Part shown: in pieces, positions 1,841 to 18,333 of the stretch | Position numbering within the stretch: position 1 is the first letter of the stretch | Layout of the letters: each line of letters begins with the position of its first letter | Virus record (IMG/VR): IMGVR_UViG_3300032053_005343 | Span: 1-64,000 of that record | Source of the DNA: a virus | Reading direction: 5' to 3' (one strand) | Length of the DNA: 64,000 nt | Position numbers and translations under genes: made by a program | The notes under the pieces: generated by a model | Seen by the model: the letters and a program-made list of their open reading frames with translations, nothing else | Databases searched by the model: none | What the model was told of the DNA's origin: nothing

Positions 1841-2647
1841 ATGTCTAGTAGAATTCTTTTAGAAAATAGTAGTATTGATGGAGAACTTCTAGAAAACGGA
1901 AGTGGAGTTATACTTCTTGAATCGTTAAATTTATTTATCCGTGCAAATAATGCAGACATCGGTGCAATACAAGTTCCAGGGATGGATATAGGGGCTGTTC
2001 AATCGACGGCTGCTGTCGCAGTAGCTTTTAGTGGAAATTTAGATTTATTCATTCATGGGTTTTCCTCGCAAACCGATAATATTAATTTAATAATTACGGG
2101 ATATGAATCTTTTAGCCAATCATTGGATCTTTTTATAAACGGAAGTATTCAAACAACAGATAACTTGGATTTAACGATTACTGGGTATGACACAAATAAT
2201 GATAGTATAATCTTGTTTGTGAATGGGGCGGATTCGGAAAACAACAATCTTGATTTATTCGTAAACGGATTTGAAACTGATAATAATGCCATAGAATTGT
2301 TTATAAACGGTAAAGAATTACAAGACAATAATTTAGATTTATTTATCAGCGGACACATTACAGAAATAGATAATTTAAATCTTTTTATACATGGCAGAGA
2401 TTCTATTACAGATAGTATTGATTTAATAATAACGGGCGAGGAAGCAAACAATCAATCTCTTAATCTCTTTATCTTAGGTTTTGATACAAGTTCTAATAAT
2501 ATAGATTTGTTTATGGATGGGGATATTTTCCCGGAAGAAGGTGATGTTCGATATGGTGTAACATATAATTATGGTTCGCAAACTGGAGTTCTTGTGCTTC
2601 CGGAAGAGGGCGATGTGCGTTTTAATGTTGGTTATGGTGTGTTATAA
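1841..2647 (+). CDS. 14-residue-repeat fibre protein (short form)
   Basis: 268 residues. Residues about 66-228 are twelve tandem 14-residue units of the form NLDLFINGxxxxxx (Leu/Ile at 2, 4 and 6, Phe at 5, Gly at 8), a pattern expected to give short repeated beta-strands and turns. The C-terminus switches to two copies of EEGDVRYGV-like sequence, the repeat that builds the next four ORFs. The same 14-residue repeat makes up most of the proteins at 9078-13646 and 32990-35581. Probably an elongated virion fibre or adhesin; similar repeats are known to me from uncharacterised phage proteins only. Confidence 0.62.
   Translation: MSSRILLENSSIDGELLENGSGVILLESLNLFIRANNADIGAIQVPGMDIGAVQSTAAVAVAFSGNLDLFIHGFSSQTDNINLIITGYESFSQSLDLFINGSIQTTDNLDLTITGYDTNNDSIILFVNGADSENNNLDLFVNGFETDNNAIELFINGKELQDNNLDLFISGHITEIDNLNLFIHGRDSITDSIDLIITGEEANNQSLNLFILGFDTSSNNIDLFMDGDIFPEEGDVRYGVTYNYGSQTGVLVLPEEGDVRFNVGYGVL
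2036..2522 (+). repeat. twelve coding 42-bp repeats
   Basis: Tandem 42-bp units in frame, each encoding one 14-residue LDLFIxG motif. Codons vary between copies (gattta/gatctt, tttata/ttcgta) while the amino acids persist. Confidence 0.8.
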
Positions 2648-2672
2648 TATTTTTTAAAAAGGAGAAGAGAGT

Positions 2673-3050: not shown

Positions 3051-3132
3051 TAGGAAGTTGTTTTATATATAAAAAAGGGGATCTAATTATAATAAAAGAT
3101 TTTAATATCCCTCCTTTGATTGGACAATTATA
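3051..3132 (+). other. 82-nt spacer with imperfect stem-loop
   Basis: This spacer holds a run AAAAAGGGGAT near 3072-3082 and a partly complementary ATCCCTCCTTT near 3107-3117, separated by an AT-rich loop. The loop is long (about 25 nt) and no T-tract follows, so I do not call it a terminator. No clear RBS precedes the ATG at 3133. Confidence 0.3.
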
Positions 3133-3348: not shown

Positions 3349-3357
3349 GAGTTTATA

Positions 3358-3540
3358 ATGTCAGAATTTAATGGTATAATTATACTACCGTCAGAGAACG
3401 ATGTTGAGGCGGGTATTATGTATGGAACTAGTGGCATTGAATTTACCGGAAATATGATTCCCCCAAGTTCATCTCAAGTAATAGATGGAGTTGAATTTGG
3501 TGGTAGTGGAACAGAATTTACTGGAACTTTTACTTGTTAA
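3358..3540 (+). CDS. EFTG...DVxxGVxFG repeat protein 3
   Basis: 60 residues, two repeat units beginning MSEFNGIIILPSENDVEAGI and ending EFTGTFTC. A TAGGAG RBS overlapping the previous stop supports translation from ATG 3358. The stop comes shortly after the third EFTG motif, as if a unit were cut short. Short, but it keeps the reading frame, RBS and repeat pattern, so I treat it as real. Confidence 0.45.
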   Translation: MSEFNGIIILPSENDVEAGIMYGTSGIEFTGNMIPPSSSQVIDGVEFGGSGTEFTGTFTC

Positions 3541-3551
3541 AAAGATAAAAT

Positions 3552-4127: not shown

Positions 4128-4128
4128 T

Positions 4129-4458
4129 ATGGCTCTTGTGGAATATGAATATTCATTATTAGAACCGATTTCAATTATTGGAGATTTTACTACTGGCGAG
4201 ACAGTGAATATTGAATTGTGGCAAGACGGAATCTTACAAACTATCACCTCCAGTGGATGTACCGAGATTGATGAGACGGGAAAATTTGGCTGGTCAACTG
4301 GAAATATCGCCGTATTGACCGCGAGTAAGGTTCAATATCACTGGAAAATGCAAGATGGTTCTAGTAATTCTGTTGAGGGAGACTTTGTTTTACAATCGGT
4401 AGAAGGAGAAGATGGTGGATTCCCAAGAGATAAGGATAGTTATATTTTAAGGATTTAA
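4129..4458 (+). CDS. Ig-like domain virion protein
   Basis: 109 residues. It is homologous to the C-terminal domain of the preceding protein: both share a segment of form 'IIGDFTTGETVNIELWQDG' followed by 'TSSGCTEIDETGKFGWSTGNI', an all-beta domain. ATG 4129 follows a strong RBS inside the upstream gene and lies 1 nt after its stop, so the two are translationally coupled. No catalytic motif. Probably a small fibre or decoration subunit. Confidence 0.5.
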   Translation: MALVEYEYSLLEPISIIGDFTTGETVNIELWQDGILQTITSSGCTEIDETGKFGWSTGNIAVLTASKVQYHWKMQDGSSNSVEGDFVLQSVEGEDGGFPRDKDSYILRI

Positions 4459-4462
4459 AACG

Positions 4463-4969
4463 ATGGAAACTTGGAGAAATGTACGTGGATATGAAAATAT
4501 CTACCAAATATCGAATAAAACTTTTGTCAAAAATATAAAAACTGGTAAAATTTTGAAGCAAAGACTTACCCATAATGGATATCTGTATGTTAGGTTGTCT
4601 AAGAATGGATTGGGAACGATTAAAAATATTCATGTTTTGATGCTAGAAGCATTTATTGGTCCGAGACCAATTAATTGTGTTTGTAGACATTTGGATGGCA
4701 ATAAATTAAATAATAATATCAATAATTTGCGATGGGGAACAAGATCTGAAAATGCACAAGATTCTATTAAACATGGAACTTTTCATATTCCAGACAACAG
4801 AGGATCTAAATGTGAAACCTCTAAATTGAACGACTTACAAGTAAGTATAATTAAAAAATTATTAAAAGATAACTATTTGACACATAAAGAAATAGCAATA
4901 ATATTTGGCGTTAGTGCTCGTAATATTAGGGATATCAAAAATGATAAAATATGGAGACATATAAAATGA
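4463..4969 (+). CDS. HNH homing endonuclease (NUMOD4-HNH-HTH)
   Basis: 168 residues. Order: N-terminal NUMOD4 motif (METWRNVRGYENIYQISN), an HNH core with LEAFIGPRP, CRHLDGNKLNNNINNLRWGT and SENAQDSIKHGT, then a C-terminal helix-turn-helix (THKEIAIIFGVSARNIRDI) ending IWRHIK. This free-standing nuclease is expected to cut an allele lacking it and spread by repair. Its last codons TGG AGA CAT supply the GGAGA Shine-Dalgarno of the next gene, whose ATG overlaps the stop as ATGA at 4966-4969. Paralogues lie at 43174, 54831, 60266 and 62671. Confidence 0.88.
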   Translation: METWRNVRGYENIYQISNKTFVKNIKTGKILKQRLTHNGYLYVRLSKNGLGTIKNIHVLMLEAFIGPRPINCVCRHLDGNKLNNNINNLRWGTRSENAQDSIKHGTFHIPDNRGSKCETSKLNDLQVSIIKKLLKDNYLTHKEIAIIFGVSARNIRDIKNDKIWRHIK

Positions 4970-5502
4970 GTTGGGACGTAGACTTGGTAACTATATTGAG
5001 AGTATTGATCGGCGATTTAAATTTGCCACAAAAGAACACTGACATCTATCTCAAGAAAATTTTAATTACGGCAGGAGTTCTTGTTTCTAATGAAATAGAT
5101 TTAAGTAATAATTATGTGTTTGATATTACTGGCGTTACCATTGTCCCAGATCCGATAATATTGGGGGATATTCAAGTTCAGGCATTGTTGCCACTAAAAG
5201 CAAGTTGTCTTTTAAATCAATCTGATTTTAGAATAGCTTTGTCTCAAGGAGTAAGTATACGCGACGGAGATACCCAAATTACAACGTCTGTGAGTTTCGC
5301 AGGCTACGCCGACATCCTCAAATTAGGCCCATGTAAATCCTACGAATTATTAATTAATAAATTAACCGCCGCCTCAAGTTCATTGGTCGGTGGCGCTGTT
5401 TTGGGCGCATATCGTGGTCCTAGTGATAGTGCTATTTCTACTGTCGCGTGGTTCTACGATCAACTTGCATTACCAATTGAGAGAGTAAATAGAAGATATT
5501 AA
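4966..5502 (+). CDS. probable head-tail connector (adaptor) protein
   Basis: 178 residues from the ATG at 4966 (MSWDVDLVTILRVLIGDLNL), which I prefer to the in-frame ATG at 4951 because GGAGA at 4953-4957 is well placed and the stop of the HNH gene overlaps as ATGA. N-terminal helices of the kind seen in head-tail adaptors (gp6/gp15-like) are followed by a beta-rich centre (FDITGVTIVPDPIILGDIQ) and a long C-terminal tail ending ERVNRRY. Position just before neck-like genes supports the call; no specific motif proves it. Confidence 0.5.
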   Translation: MSWDVDLVTILRVLIGDLNLPQKNTDIYLKKILITAGVLVSNEIDLSNNYVFDITGVTIVPDPIILGDIQVQALLPLKASCLLNQSDFRIALSQGVSIRDGDTQITTSVSFAGYADILKLGPCKSYELLINKLTAASSSLVGGAVLGAYRGPSDSAISTVAWFYDQLALPIERVNRRY

Positions 5503-5511
5503 ACGTGTTTA

Positions 5512-6102
5512 ATGGCAATACTAACAAATAATTTAAATTTAAACATACGTGGATCACAACCAGCCCCAGAAATTTCTTGTCCCGCTCTTGATCCCAATGC
5601 CTCGATACAAATAAGCGATGACCTTATACAAATTTATCAGTCTCGCATAGATGCTTTAATTAATCAACTAGGAAAGAATGTCTATTTGATATTTGATCCT
5701 ATTATAGAACCATGTACAAATTGTACTTTTGACGTTGTAGGAAATAGATCAACAGGAATTTATAAGATTGGTGGACCTGTTTCCTTCTCTCGCGGACAAA
5801 AGTGTCCATATTGTAAATCTGTTGGCTTCCTTGAAAGAGAAAATGCTAAATGTATTAAAGCGTTAATTAAATGGGCTCCTGTAGAAATGAAAAATTTTGG
5901 AATTTCTGTTCAAAAAACCGAGGGAGTAGTTCGTTTGAAAACTTTCCTAACAGACGTGCCAGATCTTGTGCGATGTAAATACGCCATAGTTAACCACGAC
6001 ATAGAGGAAATTTTGAAACTTCGAGTGAGATTGATTCAGGGACCGATTCCTGTGGGGCTTCGGGAAGATCGTTACTCGATAAGTTTTTGGGAGACGCTCT
6101 AG
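5512..6102 (+). CDS. zinc-ribbon neck/tail-completion protein
   Basis: 196 residues. The N-terminus carries a single degenerate repeat (NNLNLNIRGS), then a conserved domain: CPALDPNASIQISDD, helix IYQSRIDALINQLGKNV, and two Cys pairs, CTNC and CPYC, likely binding one zinc. The same domain forms the C-terminus of the 1522-residue protein at 9078. No nuclease or protease motif is visible. Its place between connector and tail genes suggests a neck or stopper protein. The stop is immediately followed by the ATG of an HNH gene with no gap; that gene's RBS (GGGAGACG) lies in the last codons here (W-E-T-L). Confidence 0.5.
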   Translation: MAILTNNLNLNIRGSQPAPEISCPALDPNASIQISDDLIQIYQSRIDALINQLGKNVYLIFDPIIEPCTNCTFDVVGNRSTGIYKIGGPVSFSRGQKCPYCKSVGFLERENAKCIKALIKWAPVEMKNFGISVQKTEGVVRLKTFLTDVPDLVRCKYAIVNHDIEEILKLRVRLIQGPIPVGLREDRYSISFWETL

Positions 6103-6969
6103 ATGGAGAATTTAGTTGGACAAAAATTTAATAGATTAACACCAATTGAATATGTTGGCAGAACAAAAAGGGGGGTTCCTAAATGGCTTTGTTTGTGTGA
6201 TTGTGGCAATAAAACAATAGTAACAAGTGGTCATTTAAAGAATGGTCATTCCAAAAGTTGCGGATGTTTTAAAAATGAAAAAACAATACAAAGAAATAAA
6301 GCAAATGCGGGATTAAATAAAAATTGCTGGACAAAAGACGAAATGGAATTTTTAAAAATTAATTATCCGTTTCATGGCACAAGATTTTGTATGAAGAATC
6401 TTAATAGGACGAAAAGGGCTATAAGTTCAACGGCATCGAAACTGGGTTTAAAAACCGCAATAGCTTCTCAAGGAGTGCCTCAAAAAAATATAATTAAAAA
6501 AATATCGAACAGCAAGGTTTTAAGTTTGTGCCAAATTCATGGAGAAACAATACATTATTGTAGAAAAAATAAAATAATTTATTGTTTGAAGTGTCGTCAC
6601 AAAAATCCTGTTAATAATTTTGCTTCAAGAATAAGAAGTTTAATTAGACATGCTTTTAAGAAAATCTCGATTAATCATAGTTATATTCCAAGAGGGGGAT
6701 TTCGTAACTTGGATTATAGTCCAATAGAATTATATAACTATCTCGAAAATACTAGAGAACTACAAAATAATAAGTGTCCACATTGTTATACCTCTTACGA
6801 TAAATGTGAAATGAATATAGAACACGTTATTCCTCTCGCAACAGCCAAGACCGAGCAACAAGTTATAGATTTATTTTGTTTACAAAATTTGAATTTAATG
6901 TGCAAATCATGCAACTCATCAAAAAGTGACACAGATTATAAAATTTGGATGGAGAATAAATGTGTATAA
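6103..6969 (+). CDS. zinc-ribbon HNH homing endonuclease
   Basis: 288 residues. N-terminal zinc ribbon (GQKFNRLTPIEYVG...WLCLCDCGN...SKSCGCF), then a Myb/HTH-like segment (CWTKDEMEFLKINYPFHGTRFCMKNL...RTKRAI), a second Cys pair (YCLKCRHK), and an HNH site near the C-terminus (NNKCPHCYTSYDKCEMNIEHVIPLATAK...NLNLMCKSCNSSKSD). It is clearly paralogous to the gene at 14338. A free-standing mobile nuclease placed exactly at the stop of the neck gene. The following gene has its own TATGGAGATTAT RBS. Confidence 0.85.
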   Translation: MENLVGQKFNRLTPIEYVGRTKRGVPKWLCLCDCGNKTIVTSGHLKNGHSKSCGCFKNEKTIQRNKANAGLNKNCWTKDEMEFLKINYPFHGTRFCMKNLNRTKRAISSTASKLGLKTAIASQGVPQKNIIKKISNSKVLSLCQIHGETIHYCRKNKIIYCLKCRHKNPVNNFASRIRSLIRHAFKKISINHSYIPRGGFRNLDYSPIELYNYLENTRELQNNKCPHCYTSYDKCEMNIEHVIPLATAKTEQQVIDLFCLQNLNLMCKSCNSSKSDTDYKIWMENKCV

Positions 6970-6984
6970 GTATATGGAGATTAT

Positions 6985-7410
6985 ATGATAGAAGAAATAA
7001 AATTAAAAGCTAATGTACATATTATACTTCGTGGTCCTGATGGTAATATCAAACATGAAAGTGTTCATAATACCGTTACAACTGCCGGAAAAAATGGAAT
7101 AGCGGATCAAATTTTAGCATCTCCAACTTTAGGCAAACCAACACATATGGCAGTTGGAACAGGGTCTCCTTCGGCAACTGCTTTGGGGACAGAACTAGAT
7201 AGAAATGCCAATACTTCGAAAACAAGAAGTGATGCTGTTGTTACTATTATTGGAGATTGGGCTGCGGGAGATGGGACTGGAACATTAACTGAAGCTGGTA
7301 TATTTGACGCTTCGTCTAACGGTAATATGTGGATGTCTGCATCTTTTTCTGCTCTTGTTAAAGGTGCTGCGGATACTCTTCAAATTACCTGGACTCTTAC
7401 TGTGAGTTAA
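6985..7410 (+). CDS. phage virion/tail-fibre protein
   Basis: 141 residues. It begins with 'IKLKANVHIILRGPDGNIKHESVHNTVTTAGKNGIADQIL', followed by 'THMAVGTGSPSATALGTELDRNANTS' and 'LTEAGIFDASSNGNMWMSASFSALVKGAADTLQITWTLTVS'. This is a recognisable family of small structural proteins common in phages, with 'AVGTGxxxxxxxxTxLxxE' and 'EAGIFD' motifs also found in tail-collar proteins. RBS TATGGAG precedes ATG 6985. It opens a cassette of three more common small virion proteins. Confidence 0.65.
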   Translation: MIEEIKLKANVHIILRGPDGNIKHESVHNTVTTAGKNGIADQILASPTLGKPTHMAVGTGSPSATALGTELDRNANTSKTRSDAVVTIIGDWAAGDGTGTLTEAGIFDASSNGNMWMSASFSALVKGAADTLQITWTLTVS

Positions 7411-7413
7411 TAA

Positions 7414-7935
7414 ATGGCCACTCGTTTATATTTAAGTGCCGCCGCTGAAACGGTTCCTATTTCTCCTGCCCCAGATTCGGGGTGGGAAGACATATCTATT
7501 TTAGCAAGATGTTTGTGTGGAACTTCAAAACGTGGATTAGCAATGACTACAGTTTCTTTCTCGGATGCAAACTATGCCAATAAAGATATACTATTTAGGC
7601 AATATATATCCCCCCCGCTTGTCCCTGGTGTATTACTTACTTTTCCTGGCGGCGATGAAGCCGTACCCATATATGCTTCTTGTAGAGTACTTGAATCAGG
7701 ATCAAGTAATAATATGTTTTTTACACTTGGGATTAGAATAATCGCAAGCAATGGAACGACCGTTAGAAGAACACTTTTAAATGTAAAAAGAGATTATCTT
7801 GAAGCGAGCGATACTCTTTTTCAGAGTAGAGCTATTAATGATGCCGATGGTGTTTTTTGTAGTACTGGTTCTTATACAACCCAAGCTGGTGATCGTTTGG
7901 TTATTGAGATAGGTATGGGGGGTGATCCTGTCTAA
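7414..7935 (+). CDS. virion protein, N-terminal part (MATRLYLSxxxETxxxSP family)
   Basis: 173 residues, MATRLYLSAAAETVPISPAPDSGWEDISILARCLCGTSKRG..., a recognisable family of beta-rich phage/prophage proteins with 'DILFRQYISPPL' and 'GDRLVIEIG' motifs. Family members that I recall continue after this point into a segment like 'GDxxATDLxxxxxxTTxxxPWIEF'. That segment is found here in the next ORF, in another frame. The gene therefore looks split at 7935, where stop and next start overlap as TAATG. Either a two-subunit split form or a frameshifted gene. Confidence 0.62.
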   Translation: MATRLYLSAAAETVPISPAPDSGWEDISILARCLCGTSKRGLAMTTVSFSDANYANKDILFRQYISPPLVPGVLLTFPGGDEAVPIYASCRVLESGSSNNMFFTLGIRIIASNGTTVRRTLLNVKRDYLEASDTLFQSRAINDADGVFCSTGSYTTQAGDRLVIEIGMGGDPV

Positions 7936-8174
7936 TGGCTGGTTCTCATTCATCAGATATGCGACTGGGTGATGCTAGTGCAACTGATCTAGCCTTTAAT
8001 GATGTTACAACTACGGATAATAGTCCGTGGGTAGAAATAGGCATTGATATAGGATTAGTTCTTACACTGTCTTTATCTGATACTGTTACTATTACCGATA
8101 ATTCTAGTCGAGTTCTTGGGGGTCAAAGCCAAGCCCCTCGTTCGATGCATCAATTTCGTCAAAGGAGAATTTAA
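7935..8174 (+). CDS. virion protein, C-terminal part of the split family
   Basis: 79 residues. MAGSHSSDMRLGDASATDLAFNDVTTTDNSPWVEIGI matches the C-terminal segment missing from the previous ORF, followed by a tail 'LTLSLSDTVTITDNSSRVL' and a basic end. The start overlaps the upstream stop (TAATG), so re-initiation would keep both halves made together. The in-frame TGA at 7923-7925 limits any simple ribosomal frameshift to a window of about 10 nt. RBS CAAAGGAG for the next gene lies in its final codons. Confidence 0.55.
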   Translation: MAGSHSSDMRLGDASATDLAFNDVTTTDNSPWVEIGIDIGLVLTLSLSDTVTITDNSSRVLGGQSQAPRSMHQFRQRRI

Positions 8175-8951
8175 ATGGGTATGTGGTTAAAACAATCAAC
8201 ATCAGTAGATGTAGGGATTGGTCCATTTGTCGATAATACTGATGGATTTACGGCGGAAACAGCCCTTACTCTTACCCAGCCAGATATTCGTTTGAAGAAA
8301 AATAATGGAAATTGGGCACAAAAGAATGCTGCGCAGACACTCTCTCATGAAGAAAATGGTTGGTATGAACTTACACTTGATGCAACAGACACAAACACAC
8401 TTGGAATTCTTCTTGTGTCGGTTCAAGAGTCAGGTGCTCTTCCTGTTTGGCATGAATTTCAAATAGTTTCGGCCAATATTTATGATTCATTTATTGGAGG
8501 AGGAGATGTACTTGATGTAAATGCTGTTCAATGGCTGGGTACAAATTTATATGCTCCTATTTATGCTGGACTTCCTGATGTTAATCTTCTATTATATGTT
8601 GGTGGAGTGCCTAGTACTTTAATTGGTGGACGAGTGCCTGCGCATGTTGGAGCAATGGCAAATAATGTAATTACATCTGGTATTATTGCTGCCGATGCAA
8701 TTGGAGCAAGTGAACTTGCTGCGGATGCTGTAACCGAGATTGCTGATGCTATACTTAAAAGGGATATGGGTGCCGTAAGCGGAGAATCTGCTCGATCACT
8801 TTTAAATGCTATTAGAAAACTCATGAATAAATGGTCTATTTCTGGAACAGTTTTAACAGTTACTAAAGAAGATGATTCAACCACAGCATATACTCAAAAT
8901 ATAACTTCTACATCTAATGCGGATGCTATTACTGGATTGGATACAAATTAA
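8175..8951 (+). CDS. phage fibre protein (MxWLKQSTxxxVxIGPFVD family)
   Basis: 258 residues. The N-terminus MGMWLKQSTSVDVGIGPFVDNTDGFTAETALTLTQPDIRLKKNNG is the widespread phage domain that often begins tail or head fibre proteins (BppU-like beta-sandwich), through 'GWYELTLDATDTNTLGILLVSVQESGALPVWHEFQIV'. A linker with 'GIIAADAIGASELAADAVTEIADAIL' (helical, typical of fibre coiled segments) leads to a small beta C-terminal domain. RBS CAAAGGAG. Structural adhesin or fibre. Confidence 0.68.
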   Translation: MGMWLKQSTSVDVGIGPFVDNTDGFTAETALTLTQPDIRLKKNNGNWAQKNAAQTLSHEENGWYELTLDATDTNTLGILLVSVQESGALPVWHEFQIVSANIYDSFIGGGDVLDVNAVQWLGTNLYAPIYAGLPDVNLLLYVGGVPSTLIGGRVPAHVGAMANNVITSGIIAADAIGASELAADAVTEIADAILKRDMGAVSGESARSLLNAIRKLMNKWSISGTVLTVTKEDDSTTAYTQNITSTSNADAITGLDTN

Positions 8952-8952
8952 C

Positions 8953-9075
8953 ATGGATTTTATAGGATATAAAACTGGAACAATTTCTATTGGATTGTTA
9001 GGTTTATTAGATTTCATTGGATATCCTATTGTAAAAATTTCTCCTGATATAATTATAGCCACTGACGGAGAATAA
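8953..9075 (+). CDS. 40-residue protein duplicating the N-terminus of the next gene
   Basis: A short ORF in the gap before the giant repeat gene, starting ATG 8953 just after the previous stop. It encodes MDFIGYKTGTISIGLLGLLD then FIGYPIVKISPDIIIATDGE. The segment GLLDFIGYPI closely matches GILDFIGYPV at residues 7-15 of the next protein. Its last codons contain GGAGA, the RBS of the GTG start at 9078. It may be a real small protein or a duplicated leader that only carries the RBS. Confidence 0.38.
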   Translation: MDFIGYKTGTISIGLLGLLDFIGYPIVKISPDIIIATDGE

Positions 9076-9077
9076 AA

Positions 9078-12000
9078 GTGGCTATAGGATTCAAAGGTAT
9101 CCTAGATTTTATAGGATATCCTGTCGGTACACCAAGTCTTTCAATAAATAATAATTTAAATTTATCTATATGTGGACACGATTCCATAATATATAATGAA
9201 TCAAAGTTGTACTTTGCGGACGATGCTTCTGATAGGATGTGGAGATCAAACCTTGATGGAACAAATATATTATTGATCGCTTCTGGTTCTCCCGTAATAG
9301 ATGATCCTTCGAGATCTATTAATGCCAATATATTTACAGATAAAATTTATTGGATTAATACGGACGATATACTACAAATTAGAAGAGCTAATATTGATGG
9401 TAGTAATTATGAGATTTTAGTATCTGGTTCCGATACATCTAATGGCGATGGATTAAAAATTATTCCATCCAAAAATTTAATGTATTGGACGGATACTTCG
9501 GATAATAAAGTTTCTAAATCAGATTTATTAGGAAATAATATAGCAGTAATATACGATTCTTCTGGAATTTATCAACCAGATGCAATAGATTATGATCCAA
9601 TAGAAGAAAAAATATATTGGACAAATACATTTTCATTTGGATCACTGTCTTATAATATAACAAGATTTAATTTAGACGGTAGTGATGTAGAAATTATATT
9701 ATCAAATCCAGAGTTTATTCCAGGTCTTTTTGATAGCGCTCCAGTAAGCATAGCGATAGATTATATTATAAGAAAAGTATATTGGGGACAAGAACCACTT
9801 GACACTTCTCTTCCGTGTATTTTTAGGGCAAATTTAGATGGAACAAATATTGAAACTATTATTCCAAGTGGTTTTCATTCTATTGAGTCGTTGTCAATAG
9901 ACTTTTTAAATAGAAAATTGTATTGGTCAGACAGAACAGTTGTGGGAAAAATTTTAAGATCTAATATGGATGGTTCTAATATAGAAACTTTATCAATTTC
10001 TCCCCCTCTTGGTAATGAAATAGTTCCATTAACTATATATCAAAGACCATACATGAATCTTTCTATAAACGGAAAAGATACGATAAATAATTCTTGTGAC
10101 TTATTTATTAAATTTGTAGAATCTATTGATAGTAACATTAATTTATTTATAAAAGGGAAAGATTCACAAAATCAAAACCTAGACTTATTCATAAATGGAT
10201 TTGATACAGAAACCCAAAATCTAGATTTGATTATTGTCGGAAATGAAATATCTACAAATGATATAGATCTTTTCGTTGACGGAAAAGTCTCGGATAATGA
10301 AAACCTAGATTTGTTTATTGGTGGGAAAGAAGCAGAATCCAATGATTTAGATTTATTTGTTCATGGGAAAGACAGCAAGACAAACAATTTAGATCTTATT
10401 GTTTCTGGCAGGAATACGCAAGATGAGAACATTGATTTAATAATAACTGGAAATGAATCTAAAAATAATAATATTGATTTATTTATACATGGGCAAAATA
10501 CAGTAAATGAAAATATTAATCTTTTTGTAGAAGGAAAAGAAACATCAACTAATTCATTAAATTTATTTATTTATGGGCGAGATACAAATACTGATAACCT
10601 TGATCTAATAATTACAGGATATGAATCCTCAAATAAATCTCTGGATCTATTTATACGCGGATTTGAGACAGAAACTCAAAACTTAGATTTGTTTATTATT
10701 GGTCATAACAATTTTAACAATAATATAAATTTATTTATTGATGGAAAAGATTCAGAAACCCGTGGCCTAGATCTCTTTATTCGCGGTAAAGATAATCAGA
10801 CTGAACAAATTGATCTATTCATCAAGGGATTGGAGACAAATAATCAAACCATAGATCTCTTCTTGTCTGGTAAAGATACAGAATCTCAAAATCTAGATTT
10901 ATTCATTAATGGCTTAGGCGTCAATAGCAATAATATTGATTTGTTTGTTCAGGGAAAAGAAACTCAATTTGATTCTTTAGATCTATTTATACAAGGGAAA
11001 GACAGCGAGACAAACAGTCTAGATCTTATTATTTCTGGCAAAAATACACAAAACGAGAGCATTGATTTAATAATAACTGGCAGCGAATCTAAAAATAATA
11101 ATTTGGATTTAATCATAATTGGTGAACAGGCAAATACAAGTGTATTAGATCTTTTCATCCACGGTTTTGATTTCGCCAATAATAACATTGATTTATTTAT
11201 AAATGGGAAAAATACCCAGTCTAATAATTTAAATCTTTTTATATCTGGGAAAGAAACACAAACCAATTCATTAGATTTATTTATATCGGGTAAAGATTCT
11301 TCAACAAATAATATTGATCTTTTCATTAACGGAAAAGCCTCGAATAACGAAAATCTAGAGTTATTTATACATGCCCATGATTTTGTTGATACTAACATAG
11401 ACTTGTTCATTGGTGGGAAAGAAGCAGAATCAAACGATTTGAATTTCTTCATTCGTGGCAAAAATACTCAAACTCAATCAATCAATTTATTTATACCGGG
11501 AGAGGATTCACAAAGCCAAAGTCTAGACCTATTTATAAAAGGTTTCGAAGCAAACAATAAAAATATAGATTTAATAATATTTGGTAAAAATATAGAGTCG
11601 CAGGAATTAAATTTATTCGTTCATGGAAATGAAACAAAGATAGCTAATACAGATCTCTTCTTGTCTGGCAAAGATTTTGTTGCGAATATTTTCGATCTTT
11701 TTATCAAAGGATTCGAGACAAACTCTGATAGTGTAGATTTATTTATATCCGGCAAAGATTCTGAAAATCCATTTTTAAATCTATTTATATCCGGTAAAGA
11801 TTCTAAAAATAATGACATAAATTTATTCATAAGTGGCAAAAATAATCAAAACAATAGTTGTAATTTATATATTTCGGGTAAAGACACAGAAAATAAAAAT
11901 TTAGATCTTGTTGTTTTTGGTTTTGAAATAAATTCTGAAAATATAGATCTTTCTATTCGTGGTAAAGATATACGAACCGAATCACTTGATTTATTTATTT

Positions 12001-13646
12001 ATGGAAAGGGTTCGTCAACAAACAATGTTGATCTTTTTATTATAGGCAATGGGACAAAAATTAACACCGTTGATTTATTCATTTCTGGAATATCAGAACA
12101 AATAATATTTAATTCGATAGATCTTGTTCTTGTTGGAAAAGATGCCGAGAATAATAGCATAGATTTATATATTGAAGGGCTTGACACAAAAAATCAGAGT
12201 TTAGATCTTTTCATAAATGGAAGTATTCAAACAGCTAATAACATAGATCTGTTTATAACGGGGAACAATAATAAACAGCAGAAATTGGATTTATTTATAC
12301 GCGGGAGTGAAACAAATACACAAGCATTAAATCTCTTTATCGAAGGCAAGGATACAAGAACTAATAATATCGAATTATTTATTAAAGGAAAAGATGCCGA
12401 ATTTAAACAAATAGATTTAACAATAACAGGGAAAGATAGCGAGACAGAATCAATAGATCTTTTCCTGTCCGGTAAAAATACAGAAAATCAAAATCTAGAC
12501 TTATTTATAGGTGGATTTAATACAAATACAAACAATTTAGATCTTTTTGTTCATGGCAAAAATGTTGTAAATAATAATTTAACATTATTTATTATAAACA
12601 TAAATTCATCATCTAATTCTATTGATCTGTTTATCTCTGGACCAATCTCTACAAATAATAATCTTAACCTATTTATACAAGGCAAAGATCAAAATAACAA
12701 TAATATTGAACTATTTATAAATGGTTCGAATGCTTCTAATGAAAACATTGATTTGTTTATAGACGGGTTCGATTCCCAGACAAACAATTTAGATTTAATA
12801 ATAATTGGTAAAGATACAAAGTCTCAGGAATTAAGTTTATTTGTTCGCGGGAGTGAAACAAATACCGAAACCATAGATCTTTTTCTGTCTGGCAAAGAAT
12901 CTATCACAGACATTGCCGACTTTTTTATAAAAGGATTCGATACAAATTCTAATGCTTTAAATTTATTTATCCACGGCTCCAATTTTGTTGATAATGATTT
13001 AACTCTATTCATTTCTGGTCCAATTTTAATAAATGGAAATATTGATTTATTCTTAAAGGTTTTAGAAGCAAGGCCATTAGATTTATTTATAGAAGGACGA
13101 GTACAACCACCAATTGTTTCGTGTCCAATATTAGACCCAGAAGCATCTATTCAAATAAGTGATGAATTAATAGGAATTTATCAGTCGAGAATTGATGCTC
13201 TTATTAATCAATTAGGAAAGAATGTTTTATTAGAATTTGATCCGATAATAGAACCTTGCACAAATTGTTTCCAAAATATAATAGAACATAGATCGAACGG
13301 CATTTACAAGCCTGGAGGACCGATTCCCTTCGACAGAGGCCAAAAGTGCCCATATTGTAAATCTATTGGTTTTCTTGAAAGATCGGTAAATAGGTGTATT
13401 AAATCGTTAGTGCAATGGAATGGGCGTGACAATGAAAGTTACAAGATTAGCGTTCAACATGGAGGCGGGATTGTCAGATTAAAGTCGTTTTTATCGGATG
13501 GACCTTATTTGATCAAAGCTAAAAGCTGTGTCACCAATTACGATACATCTAATATTTTTAAATTGAGGGTAAAAATAATAAAGGGACCAATTATTTTAGG
13601 GTTGCGAAATGAGAGATATTTGACAACTTACTGGAAAATGATTTAA
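9078..13646 (+). CDS. giant fibre: YWTD propeller + ~70 repeats + zinc-ribbon neck domain
   Basis: 1522 residues from a GTG start with a GGAGA RBS. Residues 40-320 form a YWTD/LDL-receptor-B-type beta-propeller with six blade motifs (LYFADD, IYWINT, MYWTDT, IYWTNT, VYWGQE, LYWSDR), each followed by an xNxDGxN turn. Residues about 325-1337 are roughly seventy 14-residue units (NxLDLFIxGKDxxx). Residues about 1340-1522 copy the whole zinc-ribbon domain of the 5512 gene (CPILDPEASIQISDE, IYQSRIDALINQLGKNV, CTNC, CPYC). The C-terminus would anchor the protein at the neck or tail and the repeats would project the propeller outward. Domain calls are strong; the anchoring model is inference. Confidence 0.75.
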   Translation: MAIGFKGILDFIGYPVGTPSLSINNNLNLSICGHDSIIYNESKLYFADDASDRMWRSNLDGTNILLIASGSPVIDDPSRSINANIFTDKIYWINTDDILQIRRANIDGSNYEILVSGSDTSNGDGLKIIPSKNLMYWTDTSDNKVSKSDLLGNNIAVIYDSSGIYQPDAIDYDPIEEKIYWTNTFSFGSLSYNITRFNLDGSDVEIILSNPEFIPGLFDSAPVSIAIDYIIRKVYWGQEPLDTSLPCIFRANLDGTNIETIIPSGFHSIESLSIDFLNRKLYWSDRTVVGKILRSNMDGSNIETLSISPPLGNEIVPLTIYQRPYMNLSINGKDTINNSCDLFIKFVESIDSNINLFIKGKDSQNQNLDLFINGFDTETQNLDLIIVGNEISTNDIDLFVDGKVSDNENLDLFIGGKEAESNDLDLFVHGKDSKTNNLDLIVSGRNTQDENIDLIITGNESKNNNIDLFIHGQNTVNENINLFVEGKETSTNSLNLFIYGRDTNTDNLDLIITGYESSNKSLDLFIRGFETETQNLDLFIIGHNNFNNNINLFIDGKDSETRGLDLFIRGKDNQTEQIDLFIKGLETNNQTIDLFLSGKDTESQNLDLFINGLGVNSNNIDLFVQGKETQFDSLDLFIQGKDSETNSLDLIISGKNTQNESIDLIITGSESKNNNLDLIIIGEQANTSVLDLFIHGFDFANNNIDLFINGKNTQSNNLNLFISGKETQTNSLDLFISGKDSSTNNIDLFINGKASNNENLELFIHAHDFVDTNIDLFIGGKEAESNDLNFFIRGKNTQTQSINLFIPGEDSQSQSLDLFIKGFEANNKNIDLIIFGKNIESQELNLFVHGNETKIANTDLFLSGKDFVANIFDLFIKGFETNSDSVDLFISGKDSENPFLNLFISGKDSKNNDINLFISGKNNQNNSCNLYISGKDTENKNLDLVVFGFEINSENIDLSIRGKDIRTESLDLFIYGKGSSTNNVDLFIIGNGTKINTVDLFISGISEQIIFNSIDLVLVGKDAENNSIDLYIEGLDTKNQSLDLFINGSIQTANNIDLFITGNNNKQQKLDLFIRGSETNTQALNLFIEGKDTRTNNIELFIKGKDAEFKQIDLTITGKDSETESIDLFLSGKNTENQNLDLFIGGFNTNTNNLDLFVHGKNVVNNNLTLFIININSSSNSIDLFISGPISTNNNLNLFIQGKDQNNNNIELFINGSNASNENIDLFIDGFDSQTNNLDLIIIGKDTKSQELSLFVRGSETNTETIDLFLSGKESITDIADFFIKGFDTNSNALNLFIHGSNFVDNDLTLFISGPILINGNIDLFLKVLEARPLDLFIEGRVQPPIVSCPILDPEASIQISDELIGIYQSRIDALINQLGKNVLLEFDPIIEPCTNCFQNIIEHRSNGIYKPGGPIPFDRGQKCPYCKSIGFLERSVNRCIKSLVQWNGRDNESYKISVQHGGGIVRLKSFLSDGPYLIKAKSCVTNYDTSNIFKLRVKIIKGPIILGLRNERYLTTYWKMI
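10050..13088 (+). repeat. ~3 kb of coding 42-bp tandem repeats
   Basis: About seventy in-frame 42-bp units, one per 14-residue LDLFIxG motif. Amino-acid positions 4-8 (DLFI.G) are nearly invariant while third codon positions vary freely, so selection acts on the protein. Large non-coding ORFs on the - strand here are mirror frames of the repeat. Confidence 0.85.
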
Positions 13647-13649: not shown

Positions 13650-14336
13650 ATGGCAATAATTAAAATAATTCCAGGAGCCGCATTTGACCAACAGTTGCGA
13701 ACTGGATGTCTCAAGTTCGGGAGCATCGCCTTGAACGATAGAGTTGCCTTGAATTTTAAATCAATTGCTAATAAGATAGGAGATTATTTGGTTGGCGTTT
13801 TTAACACAATAGAAGTTGTAAAATCTTTGAGAGGGCAGGGGGGGGTTGATTTGCCCGCCCACCTAGGATTAAGCGATTCTTCTGCGGAAGCATTGGTGTC
13901 AAGTATGTCTGAAATTATAAAAAATTCTGTAACAATAGGATCTCTTATCCAGGGAGATAAAAGAACGGTTACGATAAGAGCTATAGAAAGCGATTTTCAA
14001 AAATTTCTAGAACTGCCAGGAGCAAGCTACGTATCACAGCCTTCCAATATTACAATTCCGATTATGACGTGGTTAATGCTCGATCCATCCGTCGATATTG
14101 GCGCTGCGGCCTACCAAATCGTGTTTTCTGGGGACACCAACTTTCGTTCAAAAAATTCTAGGAGTGGAAGAGCGATTATGGTCAGTTTGAGTAAACTTGG
14201 AGGGTCCGCCGGGGGTGGATATATTTTGCCAGACATAATTTCTAAGACAGGAGGCCAAAATTTTATAGAAGGAACAATTGGGCAACATGGTGTAGCTCAG
14301 AAATGTGCTCAGATTGTTATTGATGAGATAAAATAA
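13650..14336 (+). CDS. probable neck/tail-completion protein
   Basis: 228 residues. Starts MAIIKIIPGAAFDQQLRTGCLKF and contains amphipathic helices (NKIGDYLVGVFNTIEVVKSL), 'DLPAHLGLSDSSAEALVSSM' and a beta-rich C-terminal half with 'MTWLMLDPSVDIGAAAYQIVF' and a Gly-rich loop SAGGGY. No enzymatic motif. Phage genes at this position, after connector/stopper genes and before the tail tube, commonly encode tail-completion proteins. It lies 3 nt after the giant fibre and 1 nt before an HNH gene. Confidence 0.45.
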   Translation: MAIIKIIPGAAFDQQLRTGCLKFGSIALNDRVALNFKSIANKIGDYLVGVFNTIEVVKSLRGQGGVDLPAHLGLSDSSAEALVSSMSEIIKNSVTIGSLIQGDKRTVTIRAIESDFQKFLELPGASYVSQPSNITIPIMTWLMLDPSVDIGAAAYQIVFSGDTNFRSKNSRSGRAIMVSLSKLGGSAGGGYILPDIISKTGGQNFIEGTIGQHGVAQKCAQIVIDEIK

Positions 14337-14337: not shown

Positions 14338-15246
14338 ATGAATAGGTTTATAGATTTAAGGGGGCAAAGATTTGGAAGGCTTTTGGTGCTGTTGTATGTT
14401 GGAAACACCATGCTGAGATCAGCCAAATGGCTTTGTAAATGCGACTGCGGTAATGAGAAAATAATTAATGGATACTCACTTAGAAATGGAGATACAAAAA
14501 GTTGCGGATGTTTGCAGAAAGAAAAACTTGTGCAAAGAACTAAGATTAATGCCAAATTTAGAAAAGGATGTTGGCAGAAAAAAGAAGATGATATTTTAAA
14601 ACAGTTTTATCCAGATAATGGTCCTGAATATTGTTTCAAATTATTAGACAGAACAAAAAAGGCGGTAATGGGCAGAGTAAGAAAACTTGATTTAAAAGTT
14701 AAATATGCTTTTAATACTGGTTTACCAAAAAAAATCATAATTAAAAAATTGTCGAACAATAGAGTTATTTCTAGATGTGAAACGCACGGAGAAACTGAGC
14801 ACTACTATTATAACAACAAAAAGATAGCGTCTTGTATGCAATGTAAACGTCTTAATAGTAACAAATGGAGAAAACTTCCAATTAATAATTTTGCAGAAAA
14901 TTTAAGATCTTTAATTAAACATGCTTTTAAAAAAATTCACAATAAAAATGGTAAACTTATACAGGGTCGTTGCTTTAAAAATCTTGATTATACTCCAATA
15001 CAACTATACAATTATCTTAACAATATTCAAAATTTACAAAATAATAAATGTCCATATTGTGATGTCTCTTATGATAAATGTAAAATAAGCATAGATCATG
15101 TAATCCCACTTTCAACAGCTAAAACAACACAAGAAGTTATAGATTTGTTTGATTTAAAAAATCTCAATCTTATGTGCAAAAATTGTAATTCACAAAAATG
15201 GAAACATGATTATAGTCTCTGGAGTAAAACTCATGTCATTAAATAA
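14338..15246 (+). CDS. zinc-ribbon HNH homing endonuclease, paralogue of 6103
   Basis: 302 residues with the same order as the 6103 gene: zinc ribbon (GQRFGRLLVLLYVG...WLCKCDCGN...TKSCGCL), Myb/HTH-like part (CWQKKEDDILKQFYPDNGPEYCFKLLDRTKKAVMGR), Cys pair (SCMQCKR), and HNH (NNKCPYCDVSYDKCKISIDHVIPLSTAK...NLNLMCKNCNSQK). The downstream gene starts inside this ORF at 15233. The TGG AGT codons (Trp-Ser) at the end provide its GGAG RBS, so the nuclease is interlocked with the structural gene. Confidence 0.87.
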   Translation: MNRFIDLRGQRFGRLLVLLYVGNTMLRSAKWLCKCDCGNEKIINGYSLRNGDTKSCGCLQKEKLVQRTKINAKFRKGCWQKKEDDILKQFYPDNGPEYCFKLLDRTKKAVMGRVRKLDLKVKYAFNTGLPKKIIIKKLSNNRVISRCETHGETEHYYYNNKKIASCMQCKRLNSNKWRKLPINNFAENLRSLIKHAFKKIHNKNGKLIQGRCFKNLDYTPIQLYNYLNNIQNLQNNKCPYCDVSYDKCKISIDHVIPLSTAKTTQEVIDLFDLKNLNLMCKNCNSQKWKHDYSLWSKTHVIK

Positions 15247-16165
15247 TTTCAAAAGTGTGGGGGTCGGAGGCTATGCAGGTTATGAACTAACCGATCAACT
15301 GCTTTATAATATTAAAGGGTTTTTAGACTGGGGACTACTTCAAAAGGGTGGTTATAATTTCTATCTATTAAACCAAGATAGTTTCTTTGCCGAAAATGAA
15401 TCTAAGCTTCGAGTTACCCAAGACGGAAGATACCCGCCAAATTGCATGTGGGAGGGAGTTGGAGAATGGGTTTGGGAATCTGGTGTAGTTCCAATGAGTG
15501 GGGGAGTTGCACCATTTCGTCCATCGGGAGTTTACATAAACGGGAATTTTATTCCATCCTCAAGCACTGGACCAAGTAGACATCATTTTGATTTTCCCAA
15601 CGGTCGAGTGATCTTCGAGGAGAGCCAAAATGCTGACGACGATATAAGGGCGGAATATACGAGCCGTAATGTTCGTGTTAGATTTTCTGATAGTGCCGAG
15701 TTTCAAAACCTAATGCTGGAATCAATTGAGGAATTCCTCTCTAACACAGTTCCATTAGCTACGCCCTCTAAATCAAATCAAGCTTGGCTTCCCTCTGTTT
15801 TTGTGGAGGTCCAGTCAGGTTCGGGGAAGGGTCTTATGTTAGGAGGAGGACAGACAAAATTTAGGACAATAGTTCTTCACATCTTCGCAGATTCTCCAGG
15901 AGAGAGAAATCTTTTAATGGATCTTCTAGATTATAATAATAGAACCGCATTCACTATGTTCGATCTCAATAAAATTCCATTTCCATTAGATGAATTTGGA
16001 TCACCGATTCCAGGGGCAACAAATTGGATTGACCTCATGGCCCAATATCCCTGGAGAAAGTTAAGAATTCAGGACGGAAGTTGTAAAACAATAAATTCTT
16101 TAAACACAAAACTATTTAGAGGCACAGTAACTTGGAGGTGCGAGATCGACATTGGTTCAATTTAA
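15233..16165 (+). CDS. probable tail/virion structural protein
   Basis: 310 residues from ATG 15233 (MSLNNFKSVGVGGYAGYELTDQLLYNIKGFLDWGLL), chosen over an upstream in-frame start because GGAG at 15221-15224 is correctly spaced. Features: a beta-rich central part ('GVYINGNFIPSS...HHFDFPNGRVIFEES'), then 'VEVQSGSGKGLMLGGGQTKFRTIVLHIFADSPGERNLLMDLLDY', reminiscent of tail-terminator or phage stabilisation proteins. At 310 residues it is too small for a contractile sheath. Its TAA overlaps the stop of the convergent Mom-fusion gene. Confidence 0.48.
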   Translation: MSLNNFKSVGVGGYAGYELTDQLLYNIKGFLDWGLLQKGGYNFYLLNQDSFFAENESKLRVTQDGRYPPNCMWEGVGEWVWESGVVPMSGGVAPFRPSGVYINGNFIPSSSTGPSRHHFDFPNGRVIFEESQNADDDIRAEYTSRNVRVRFSDSAEFQNLMLESIEEFLSNTVPLATPSKSNQAWLPSVFVEVQSGSGKGLMLGGGQTKFRTIVLHIFADSPGERNLLMDLLDYNNRTAFTMFDLNKIPFPLDEFGSPIPGATNWIDLMAQYPWRKLRIQDGSCKTINSLNTKLFRGTVTWRCEIDIGSI

Positions 16166-18315
16166 ATAAGTGATATAGAATATTTCTTCTTAGGTAAAAG
16201 ATTTATTTTTATTAATCCTCTTTCTTTAGCCAATTCTAATTCTGTTTTATCTATTCCCTTAATTCTTCTACAATATGATTTGTGCCTAAGTTGATTTGTG
16301 TTTGGGTCAAAATAACAATAACTGGATTTGGTTTTACCCTCTTTCTTCCAACCAGACATTCGATAAACTGCGCCATCATGTCCAACATTTGGATCGGCAT
16401 ATGATATTAATTGTTTAATATTTTTACAATTTTCTTTAATATAATCTACGCACATATTTAAAAATTTAATAGTAAACGGCCTGACAACATAGTATGGTAC
16501 GCATAGGCGAGTTAATTCCCAATAATCTTTTGGCATGTTTTTATTTGCTCCTCGTCCGAAAATAGCAATTCCCGCTATTATCCCATTAATTTGAGCGGTT
16601 AAAATTATTGTATGAGGAGGAATTGTTCCTAGATAATGTTCGTATCGAATAATCCTTTTAATTTCTTCTGTTATGTTTGATGTACATACTTTTGCGTCTT
16701 GCCCATTTAATTGTCCATCTTCATTAAAAGACAAATATTGTTCTTCTGTAAAATTAAAATTTTTCAGCGCGAAATCAGGAAAAGATTGCCATATTTTCCA
16801 ATAAGGATGACAATCCCTTGATGTTTTTTCTATAACTTTGTGTTCTTCTTCTGTTATAACCAAGCCATTATCAGTATCATAAAACCTAGAATCATTTGTT
16901 AGTGCTAGTGTGAATTTTTCATTTTCTAAACATTTATGTTTTGCCAAAGAGGAATTAAAAATATTTTTAAAAGGATAAACGTGATGACATTGAATATTTT
17001 CGTCGCACCCACTTATTTCACTAGCCCTATTAGAAAGAATAAAACATTTAATTTTCCATTCGAGATAGGGTGTAGAGGTTCTAATAACTTTATTAAACGG
17101 ACTTATTCCACCTTTCCATCCAGAACTATTTTCTCCATAAAATGGTCTTATTGTAATTCCATTATCTTTTAAAATATTTCCCGCGCCAACATCGGAACAA
17201 CCGACTATTCTTGCAGCTTCAGATATAAACAGTCCAGATTTATATAAATCAATTATTTTATTTTTATTATCTTCCGGGATAAAATCTCGTCTAATTATTA
17301 TATTGTTTTTATTAAGTATTTTTCTTATGGTTATATTAGAATAATTTAAAATTTTAGCTATTTCATTTATATGTTTGCCAGACTTATATAGTTCTATAAT
17401 TTGTTTAACATCAACCTTTTTAGAGGTACGAACACCAAGCCTATAAAGAATACTAGACACTTGTTTTATAGACATATTTAATTGATGAGAAATTTGTAAC
17501 GTATTTAAGGAATTATTTTTATATAGATTTAATATAATACTTCTTATTTCGCTGTCACGTTTTTTGTGATTGATAACTTCTATATTGTTTTTAATTAAGA
17601 ATGTTTTTATAGTGTCGCTTTTACAATTATAAATTTTACTTATATAATTTAAGGTTTTGCCTTCTTTGTAAAAAGATATAATACCCTCTTTATTTTTGTT
17701 CAAAAAATTTGGTATATCTAGATGTGTAGATATAAATTTTACGTGATATTTTCTTAAAATGTTTTTAATTTCTGTCCAAGAACATCCTATTTTTTTTGAT
17801 ATCTGAGAAATGTTCATTCCGTTGTTGTAAAGATCAACAATTTTACCATGTTTTTCGCTTCTTAAAGTTTTTCTTGATCTTAACCACCCATTTTTTCTAA
17901 GTTTTATATTATTTTCAATCAATAGTTTTCTAATTAAACCTCTTGATCTATTAACTATTTCTCCTATTTCTTTTGGAGATTTTCCTCCGTTGTATAACTT
18001 TAAAATTTGATTAAAATCTATATCTCTTTTTTCTTCAAATTTCTTTTGAATCTTTCTTTTATTTAAAATACAATACAGAGATCCTGGATCTTTTATTTGA
18101 TATTTAGTAAGTATATCTTTAATAATCATTCCATTTTTATAATCTTCTATAATTGAATTTTCTTTTTCTATTGTTTCTGGCTTAAATTTATTTCTTATAA
18201 TATTATTTTTATTTAATATTTTATAGATATACCATTTTTGTATCCCAAACTGCTTCTCCAGGGTGGAAATCGGTGTATTATTTTTATAGGACTCAATAAG
18301 CGCATTTTCATTCAT
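16162..18315 (-). CDS. fusion: 8x HTH array - HNH nuclease - Mom-like GNAT domain
   Basis: 717 residues from ATG 18315 (an in-frame TTG lies 18 nt upstream; I prefer the ATG). Residues 1-392: eight tandem units of about 40-50 residues of type 'IIELYKSGKHINEIAKILN', each a predicted helix-turn-helix. Residues 393-505: an HNH region (GENSSGWKGGISPFNKVIR, QCHHVYPFKNI, NGLVITEEEHKVIEK). Residues 550-690: a Mom-family/GNAT-like domain (EIKRIIRYEHYLGTIPP, IIAGIAIFGRG, YWELTRLCVP, ISYADPNVGHDGAVYRMSGW). Mom of phage Mu modifies adenine in DNA by carbamoylmethylation. Whether this domain modifies DNA, or has been recruited to a homing nuclease for another role, is open. Confidence 0.8.
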   Translation of the reverse strand: MNENALIESYKNNTPISTLEKQFGIQKWYIYKILNKNNIIRNKFKPETIEKENSIIEDYKNGMIIKDILTKYQIKDPGSLYCILNKRKIQKKFEEKRDIDFNQILKLYNGGKSPKEIGEIVNRSRGLIRKLLIENNIKLRKNGWLRSRKTLRSEKHGKIVDLYNNGMNISQISKKIGCSWTEIKNILRKYHVKFISTHLDIPNFLNKNKEGIISFYKEGKTLNYISKIYNCKSDTIKTFLIKNNIEVINHKKRDSEIRSIILNLYKNNSLNTLQISHQLNMSIKQVSSILYRLGVRTSKKVDVKQIIELYKSGKHINEIAKILNYSNITIRKILNKNNIIIRRDFIPEDNKNKIIDLYKSGLFISEAARIVGCSDVGAGNILKDNGITIRPFYGENSSGWKGGISPFNKVIRTSTPYLEWKIKCFILSNRASEISGCDENIQCHHVYPFKNIFNSSLAKHKCLENEKFTLALTNDSRFYDTDNGLVITEEEHKVIEKTSRDCHPYWKIWQSFPDFALKNFNFTEEQYLSFNEDGQLNGQDAKVCTSNITEEIKRIIRYEHYLGTIPPHTIILTAQINGIIAGIAIFGRGANKNMPKDYWELTRLCVPYYVVRPFTIKFLNMCVDYIKENCKNIKQLISYADPNVGHDGAVYRMSGWKKEGKTKSSYCYFDPNTNQLRHKSYCRRIKGIDKTELELAKERGLIKINLLPKKKYSISLI

Positions 18316-18322
18316 ACAATAT

Positions 18323-18328
18323 ATTATA
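18323..18328 (-). promoter_or_regulatory. -10-like TATAAT upstream of the Mom fusion
   Basis: TATAAT ends 7 nt before ATG 18315, and no Shine-Dalgarno is present between the LAGLIDADG stop and this ATG. It fits the leaderless-promoter pattern with slightly longer spacing. Confidence 0.45.
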
Positions 18329-18333
18329 CGCAA

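Follow-up and report, generated by a model that had tools for sequence, protein, structure and literature searches.

What is a beta-propeller of the animal-receptor type doing among the presumed neck genes of an uncultured phage, joined to some seventy short repeats? The question is raised by an open reading frame (ORF) on the plus strand, at positions 9078-13646 of the window, by which we mean the whole stretch of 64,000 nucleotides analysed here (IMG/VR virus record IMGVR_UViG_3300032053_005343, positions 1 to 64,000). The ORF starts with GTG at 9078, has an intact frame with zero internal stops and encodes 1522 amino acids (aa), in which a leader of 27 residues, a single repeat-like unit, a propeller, a long repeat stalk, a linker and a C-terminal anchor follow one another (Table 1). 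The best explanation, and in our judgement a moderately probable one, is a neck-rooted adhesion fibre built as one chain with exchangeable heads. Domain identities, the fold match of the anchor, gene order, gain and loss of stalks on the stopper and exchange of heads were obtained by calculation; presence and location in the virion, copy number in the ring, outward projection, rod shape and ligand binding are what we infer. Relatives were collected by two alignment-based scans of viral_contigs (loci L001-L020 and L023-L039), near-duplicates were present and unique loci were analysed; a scan with the anchor alone had given zero matches.

The C-terminal domain, on which such a fibre would be rooted, is most likely a head-closure (stopper) protein with a presumed zinc loop, and is read so because of its fold match, its tetra-cysteine loop, its profile alignment to phage K-type stoppers and the conserved gene order. 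The AlphaFold2 (AF2) model of the anchor, built with 36 rows, reached a predicted local distance difference test (pLDDT) score of 84-95 over most of the domain. In the VIA table of structure comparisons 22 of the 50 rows fell on the anchor, 19 of these with phage or phage-like titles, nearly all of head-to-tail connectors, necks or stoppers (Z 9.8 for lambda 8xow_f, 9.4 for Chi 8vhx_F, 8.2 for Pam3, 8.1 for the T1 stopper, 8.0 for the 812 stopper, 7.2 for SPP1 and 7.1 for XM1), and the domain has the neck beta-barrel fold with N-terminal helix expected of Hc1. The top three Foldseek matches were T4 neck complexes, though weak (E 0.02-0.15), and among the BFVD matches are proteins that bear the names head closure, head completion and neck.

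Besides the fold, the loop after the first helix carries four cysteines, and every one of the 25 aligned rows keeps C, N, C and C, P, C there. In phage 812 the stopper forms a beta-barrel that has a gating loop and a tetra-cysteine loop binding zinc, its N- and C-termini contact decoration proteins of the outer neck surface, and the cysteine pattern is conserved in Herelleviridae and, according to the authors, not in other phage groups (accessible part of PMC12886913). In the stoppers of that family (gp97 of 812, ORF46 of phage K) helix, strand and tetra-cysteine loop with CP.C.G.G follow in the same order as in the window anchor; after the helix the phage K homologue reads FINDRGIKVLW and CPC...CPRCHGKG, and the window family LINQLGKNV and CPNC...CPYCKGxG. 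The first cysteine pair differs (CxNC against CPC), and the phage K stopper has neither stalk nor propeller, unlike the window protein. Aligned by hhalign over the helix and the loop, the 25 anchors and eight Herelleviridae-type stoppers gave E 2e-4, against E 0.24 for a control with the neighbouring phage K protein; the smaller A6 alignment gave a weaker result (E 0.0057, probability 6). The first-pass annotation had described a neck-type anchor and a zinc-ribbon domain with a stand-alone copy at 5512. The neck assignment finds support and the shared domain is confirmed, but the supposed zinc ribbon is better read as the tetra-cysteine loop of a stopper; a free zinc ribbon or DnaJ-like domain was rejected, DnaJ_CXXCXGXG touching 12 of the 25 members only at E 0.019 or worse. 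In L016 (11981-13699), and likewise in L018, the short stopper is split by an intein-like insert directly after the first cysteine pair (CPNC / ... HQYVVNGIASQN / CNFD), inside this loop.

At the other end of the chain, the six-bladed YWTD propeller recognised at first pass was confirmed by Pfam, by sequence search of the PDB and by fold search. Ldl_recept_b (PF00058) matches the propeller domain alone at E 7e-13 (49.2 bits, curated cut-off 21), phmmer against PDB chains returned LRP4 at E 7e-57, and the AF2 model (pLDDT mostly 73-97, one block at 56) superposes on LRP4 with a VIA Z of 35.8 and a root mean square deviation (rmsd) of 1.6 over 256 aa. The top 39 VIA rows for the propeller are all of the LDLR/LRP/nidogen class, with LRP4, LRP6 and LDLR closest, and in the best rows the six-bladed fold is shared at 16-26% identity and rmsd 1.6-2.0. 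The blades can be counted by their YW-type strands at residues 43, 89, ~134, 178, 233 and 280. The Pfam scan found no EGF-like module flanking the propeller, which places the window protein outside the LDL-receptor family; the stalk repeats of a phage structural-type protein adjoin directly instead. Among the isolated phages of INPHARED, zero encode a match to the propeller by tblastn at E 1e-3.

The stalk between the two had been estimated at about 70 repeats of 14 residues over some 1000 residues, and the count holds at 71-72 units. Repeat starts identified by motif number 71, with a spacing of 14 in 67 of 70 intervals, apart from one of 28 (a missed unit), one of 16 and one of 12. The position-specific scoring matrix (PSSM) of the repeat matches 70 times in the window protein against 0.3 times in a shuffled one, and the identity autocorrelation at lag 14 is 0.39, compared with a maximum of 0.12 among 200 shuffles. 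When the repeat proteins of the unique loci are taken together, 476 of 680 intervals of up to 40 residues measure 14 and a further 96 measure 28, so that the register persists while the repeat sequences diverge widely. Within 69 window units of 14 residues, positions 1, 3 and 5 are hydrophobic in 99-100%, position 7 is Gly in 66, and positions 10, 12 and 14 are mostly Ser, Thr or Asn and charged in 0, 6 and 12% respectively; the charged residues of the unit lie at positions 2, 6, 8, 9, 11 and 13. This switch in the parity of hydrophobicity and charge fits a two-faced, solenoid-like coil with 14 residues per turn, and if each of 72 units formed one rung of 4.8 A the stalk would be about 35 nm long. 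As repeats also occur in two other ORFs of the window (Table 1) and in the second-anchor proteins described below, the stalk is a building element that these phages use generally.

Position 4 is hydrophobic in 97% of the 69 units, mostly Phe, and lies on the strand face opposite to 1, 3 and 5, perhaps as a greasy outer stripe forming an interface between stalks. It is accordingly quite possible, though not the form we favour, that the stalk is an intertwined oligomer such as a trimer or dimer bundle, with its interface at this outward Phe, and not a single-chain solenoid. Many phage fibres are trimers, which agrees with such a bundle; a stopper hexamer would, on the contrary, give six separate roots.

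Comparison of the relatives shows that heads are swapped as cassettes (YWTD, RCC1, LamG and others) on a fixed stopper anchor. Between the near-identical phage L002 and the window the match is 96% over 2278-6593 and 88% over 6700-9161, and the short stopper of L002 is identical. The leader of its long gene is the same base for base through codon 27, after which an RCC1 propeller (RCC1_2, E 6e-58) stands instead of the YWTD propeller, and a YWTD propeller is present further down the stalk. Stalk blocks are reordered as well, window units 33-37 fitting best to L002 units 67-71 and window units 38-45 to L002 units 15-22. L023 and L024 likewise differ by a YWTD/RCC1 exchange, here at the second head position of the long gene; their flanks match at 80-84%, and blastn finds no match in the part that these enclose. 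L009 starts with LamG (E 3e-16) and also has an RCC1-like part. Heads of several other relatives, those of L003, L016 and L033 among them, gave no Pfam match. The suggestion made at first pass that the propeller is a ligand-binding display head gains from this family-wide exchange, which fits a binding fibre. Diversification by a diversity-generating retroelement was rejected, the reverse transcriptase RVT_1 occurring in 0 of nine records tried, window genome included, although records may be incomplete. Head domains on the same stopper anchor were also seen in L003 (4371), L010 (6723), L016 (7016) and L033 (6891), and the heads of at least L003, L010 and L016 have H-rich loops (GGxxHxH-type) that recall tail-collar or receptor-binding tips. 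The leader motif GILDFIGYPVG recurs in a 40-residue ORF (MDFIGYKTGTISIGLLGLLDFIGYPI...) at 8953-9075 of the window, just ahead of the long gene, and the short stopper of L001 begins with a leader resembling it.

In the arrangement that we propose, the C-terminal stopper subunit would sit in the ring below the portal/adaptor, about 72 beta repeats would project outward from its N-terminus, and the YWTD propeller near the tip would bind a surface ligand, which may be a glycan or a protein and may belong to the host or the environment; the phage would so gain its first hold at long range, apart from the tail tip. Exchange of head cassettes and reshuffling of stalk blocks would change the bound target while the anchor stays fixed. 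If so, the neck gate protein is at the same time the root of long fibres for binding, which offers an attachment route separate from the tail tip; animal-receptor-like YWTD propellers are placed on phage virions, the tetra-cysteine stopper extends beyond Herelleviridae, and near-identical phages with different heads form a natural variant set for reading the effect of the head on target choice. More tentatively, the genome-retaining gate ring itself could be the base of the adhesion organ, with all or a fixed share of the stoppers stalked and a second anchor (g4129 domain) adding more, as a modular display collar evolving by cassette exchange. In that case a ligand bound at the tip might exert a direct pull on the gate.

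YWTD, RCC1 and LamG domains are typically ligand binders, and their swapping among close relatives is as expected for changing targets. Both points speak against the idea, which we consider rather unlikely, that the long protein is a stopper-rooted neck whisker serving assembly, environment sensing or sticking to particles, mucus or other surfaces, and not host recognition. Several stalked proteins per phage are seemingly more than one host receptor requires, as such a whisker would allow. The whiskers of T4 have moreover been proposed to act on the long tail fibres, and neck fibres need not be adhesins, since the distal carbohydrate module of the phage A-1(L) fibres did not bind the host (accessible part of PMC10966104).

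In the adhesion fibre as we propose it a stalked stopper would take its place in the ring, and the distribution of the long and short forms bears on this. Among 29 whole records, 8 had stalked stoppers only (G005, G007, G008, G014, G017, G019, G025 and G027), 10 had both forms and 11 the short form only. G005 and G007 seem to be the same phage recorded twice, G017 covers a fragment of 40 kb, several of the short-only contigs are incomplete (including L002, whose long gene runs off the contig end), and two of the ten records with both forms have the short stopper as an intein-split copy of 572 aa. The long-only G014 (179.6 kb), G025 (166.4 kb) and G027 (167.6 kb, two stalked) have the sizes of the larger records in the set; at 166-180 kb the stalked form should therefore supply the stopper itself, unless the short gene lies in a missing part, and it is probably able to form the neck ring. 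In a tree built from 39 stoppers, of which 38 are distinct and from which the intein-split copy was omitted, parsimony requires the label to switch between long and short 7 times, with 3 or more of the switches on supported branches, and the short stopper of L009 and the long one of L019 are sisters at 100/97. As the label switches repeatedly, stalks have been gained or lost on a single kind of neck protein. These data make it unlikely that the long paralogue is no ring subunit, its stopper-like domain docking on the neck or the short stopper or being an evolutionary leftover while the short protein alone makes the ring. The short form does stand beside the long one in 10 of the 29 records, and in the L003/L010/L033 group the two are separate, well supported lineages; yet the long-only records, three of them at 166-180 kb, point the other way, as does the conservation of the tetra-cysteine motif and of further invariant positions in both forms. 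Stoppers were also noted on contigs L053 and L054, binned as Phycisphaerales and Nitrosospira metagenome-assembled genomes (MAGs); in L054 a stalked stopper ORF of 1448 aa (2637-6983) adjoins a short one of 195 aa (7008-7595). A host assignment from these MAG titles was rejected, a MAG-binned contig being no host evidence.

On the shape of the stalk the models differ in confidence. Both AF2 models of the repeats are beta, with pLDDT 62-86 in the first and 38-50 in the second, and a beta-solenoid fold is accordingly a tentative reading. The first-pass suggestion of a long rod with one beta rung per unit is favoured by the residue pattern and by the beta structure in both models, and left in doubt by the second model and by the reported over-prediction of solenoids by AF2; spurious solenoids are described as showing buried charges, a pattern that the window repeats do not have (accessible part of PMC11795689). 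A flexible, largely unstructured tether is improbable to us: the low pLDDT of the second model, the 147 Asn among 1008 stalk residues with a net charge of -83 and the possibility of a spurious solenoid would suit it, and the register kept across divergent phages, the hydrophobic positions 1, 3 and 5, the nearly uncharged positions 10, 12 and 14 and the first model do not. A coiled coil (14 as two heptads) was rejected, because most residues at positions 8 and 11 are charged or polar; neither AF2 model has a helix in the stalk and no heptad pattern is present, so the stalk is not of the fibritin type. Full-protein Pfam matches such as DUF211, DUF4154 and CARD fall on the repeats and were treated as artefacts of them.

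Several points weigh against the adhesion fibre rooted in the neck. The stalk repeats have the low confidence just given in the second AF2 model, the remaining four replicas of the first averaged pLDDT 66-72, and the GlmU/LpxD rows in VIA for the stalk (rmsd ~10) are little informative. For the anchor, the hhalign probability was 46 only, Pfam and PHROG searches with the 25 members gave nothing convincing (E 0.0053 and 0.0016 at best), zero relatives turned up when PDB sequences were searched by profile, and VIA compares only chains already ranked by Foldseek. The neck assignment of the neighbours is positional only, because the adaptor-like and downstream genes have no family match. The window phage also has a short stopper, beside which the long one may serve as a minor subunit or as an alternative, and the A-1(L) result mentioned above belongs here too.

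How far is such a protein new? T4 fibritin whiskers are neck-attached fibres, as proposed for the window protein. Fibritin is a separate coiled-coil trimer, whereas the beta-repeat stalk of the window is fused to the stopper and has no heptad pattern. A propeller of a class different from the window's is found in the tail-tip device of phage phi11. In that host-recognition device it stands in the receptor-binding part (PMC4901313). The gp82-gp81-gp80 fibres of Anabaena phage A-1(L), 100 nm long and set on a neck ring, likewise arise from the neck and carry a distal binding-type module; they are made of three separate proteins, are trimeric and are rooted on a gp5 ring (accessible part of PMC10966104), whereas root, stalk and head of the window protein are one chain with a stopper root. 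The proposed fibre departs from known neck fibres in three respects: it is one fusion with the stopper, its heads are propellers, and its repeats are of another class. The design had been called unprecedented in the first-pass annotation, which is fair in that zero INPHARED phages matched, although neck fibres as such were already known; in the open-access literature we found no report of YWTD propellers in phage virions or of stoppers fused to fibres. The tblastn search of INPHARED isolates gave zero relatives of the stopper, propeller or adaptor-like gene and zero matches to a repeat stretch of 266 aa, although the BLAST low-complexity filter may mask repeats. The stopper of the distant L038 had no match among isolated phages, and that of L039 only a doubtful one (E 0.02) to a haloarchaeal virus. 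The combination of stopper, stalk and head is thus common in many forms to the relatives and absent from the isolated phages searched.

Table 1. Position of the long stopper gene, its parts and associated features in the window
Feature	Coordinates	Strand	Basis or remark
Second protein with 14-residue repeats	1841..2647	+	13 PSSM matches
Domain of ~110 aa, second anchor type	4129..4458	+	In relatives, forms the C-terminal end of a further set of long proteins, some of them stalked
Putative head-tail adaptor gene, conserved, precedes stopper	4951..5502	+	Synteny; name from position
Stopper paralogue of 196 aa, stand-alone and without stalk; one LxLxIxG strand remains at its start	5512..6102	+	57-59% identical to the window C-terminal domain
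Shine-Dalgarno-like GGAG	9067..9070	+	7 nt upstream of GTG; direct sequence reading
Leader of 27 codons (VAIGFKGILDFIGYPVG...)	9078..9158	+	Same DNA in near-identical phage L002, head behind differs
Six-bladed YWTD (LDL-receptor class B) beta-propeller head	9195..10052	+	Residues ~40-325
Stalk of 71-72 repeats, 14-residue register, consensus (L/I)DLFIxGKDTxxNN	10095..13112	+	Residues ~340-1345
C-terminal head-closure (stopper) domain, ~165 residues, most likely	13152..13643	+	Residues ~1359-1522; fold and alignment
Tetra-cysteine loop CxNC...CPYC, presumed zinc site	13257..13358	+	Stopper-domain alignment; zinc by analogy with phage 812 (accessible part of PMC12886913)
Conserved gene directly after long stopper (3 nt gap), putative neck or tail-terminator	13650..14336	+	Synteny, presumed
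Next conserved neck/tail gene of the block	15206..16165	+	Synteny
Tail-region protein with 14-residue repeats, 863 aa	32990..35581	+	21 PSSM matches; downstream of tape measure gene

In close relatives the adaptor-like gene is followed by the stopper(s), g13650, g15206 and g19562 in this order, as far as their contigs extend. The adaptor-like product had no database match and that of g13650 none in Pfam or PHROG. The distant L038 and L039 have one stopper of 169 aa, which stands between the adaptor-like gene and an unmatched gene of ~205 aa in the g13650 slot, with g15206 and g19562 next in line, and their stoppers start at the helix, without the LFING strand from which the stalk grows. The second-anchor proteins lie in the same block of the relatives, some with YWTD propellers and repeats (e.g. 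4455-9035 of L006, 1526 aa), and are also present in loci with the short stopper only, such as L004, L006, L011 and L012.

Apart from these, an N-terminal (x)LLENGSGVILLE-like motif and a MDIGAVQ/MDIGPFQ motif recur in stalked proteins (window 1841-2647, L001 7256, L023 1130 and L024 2790), possibly as assembly tags. Four small window ORFs (2673-3050, 3133-3348, 3358-3540 and 3552-4127), kept in L002, share the repeat EFTGTFVVPSDDDVxxGVxYG, as if one long repeat protein had been cut into separate genes. Among the neck genes, the ORFs at 4463-4969, 6103-6969 and 14338-15246 resemble HNH-type homing endonucleases on reading of their sequences, and the minus-strand ORFs 16162-18333 and 18334-19452 have endonuclease and helix-turn-helix matches. 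Two adjacent, very similar proteins (MAITTLDQIIAGMQPPE...) are encoded at 31330-32145 and 32165-32986 after the tape measure gene. The DNA polymerase at 55410-58121 (minus strand) has an HNH-type insert near residues 267-363, between polymerase-like pieces, which may be an intein.

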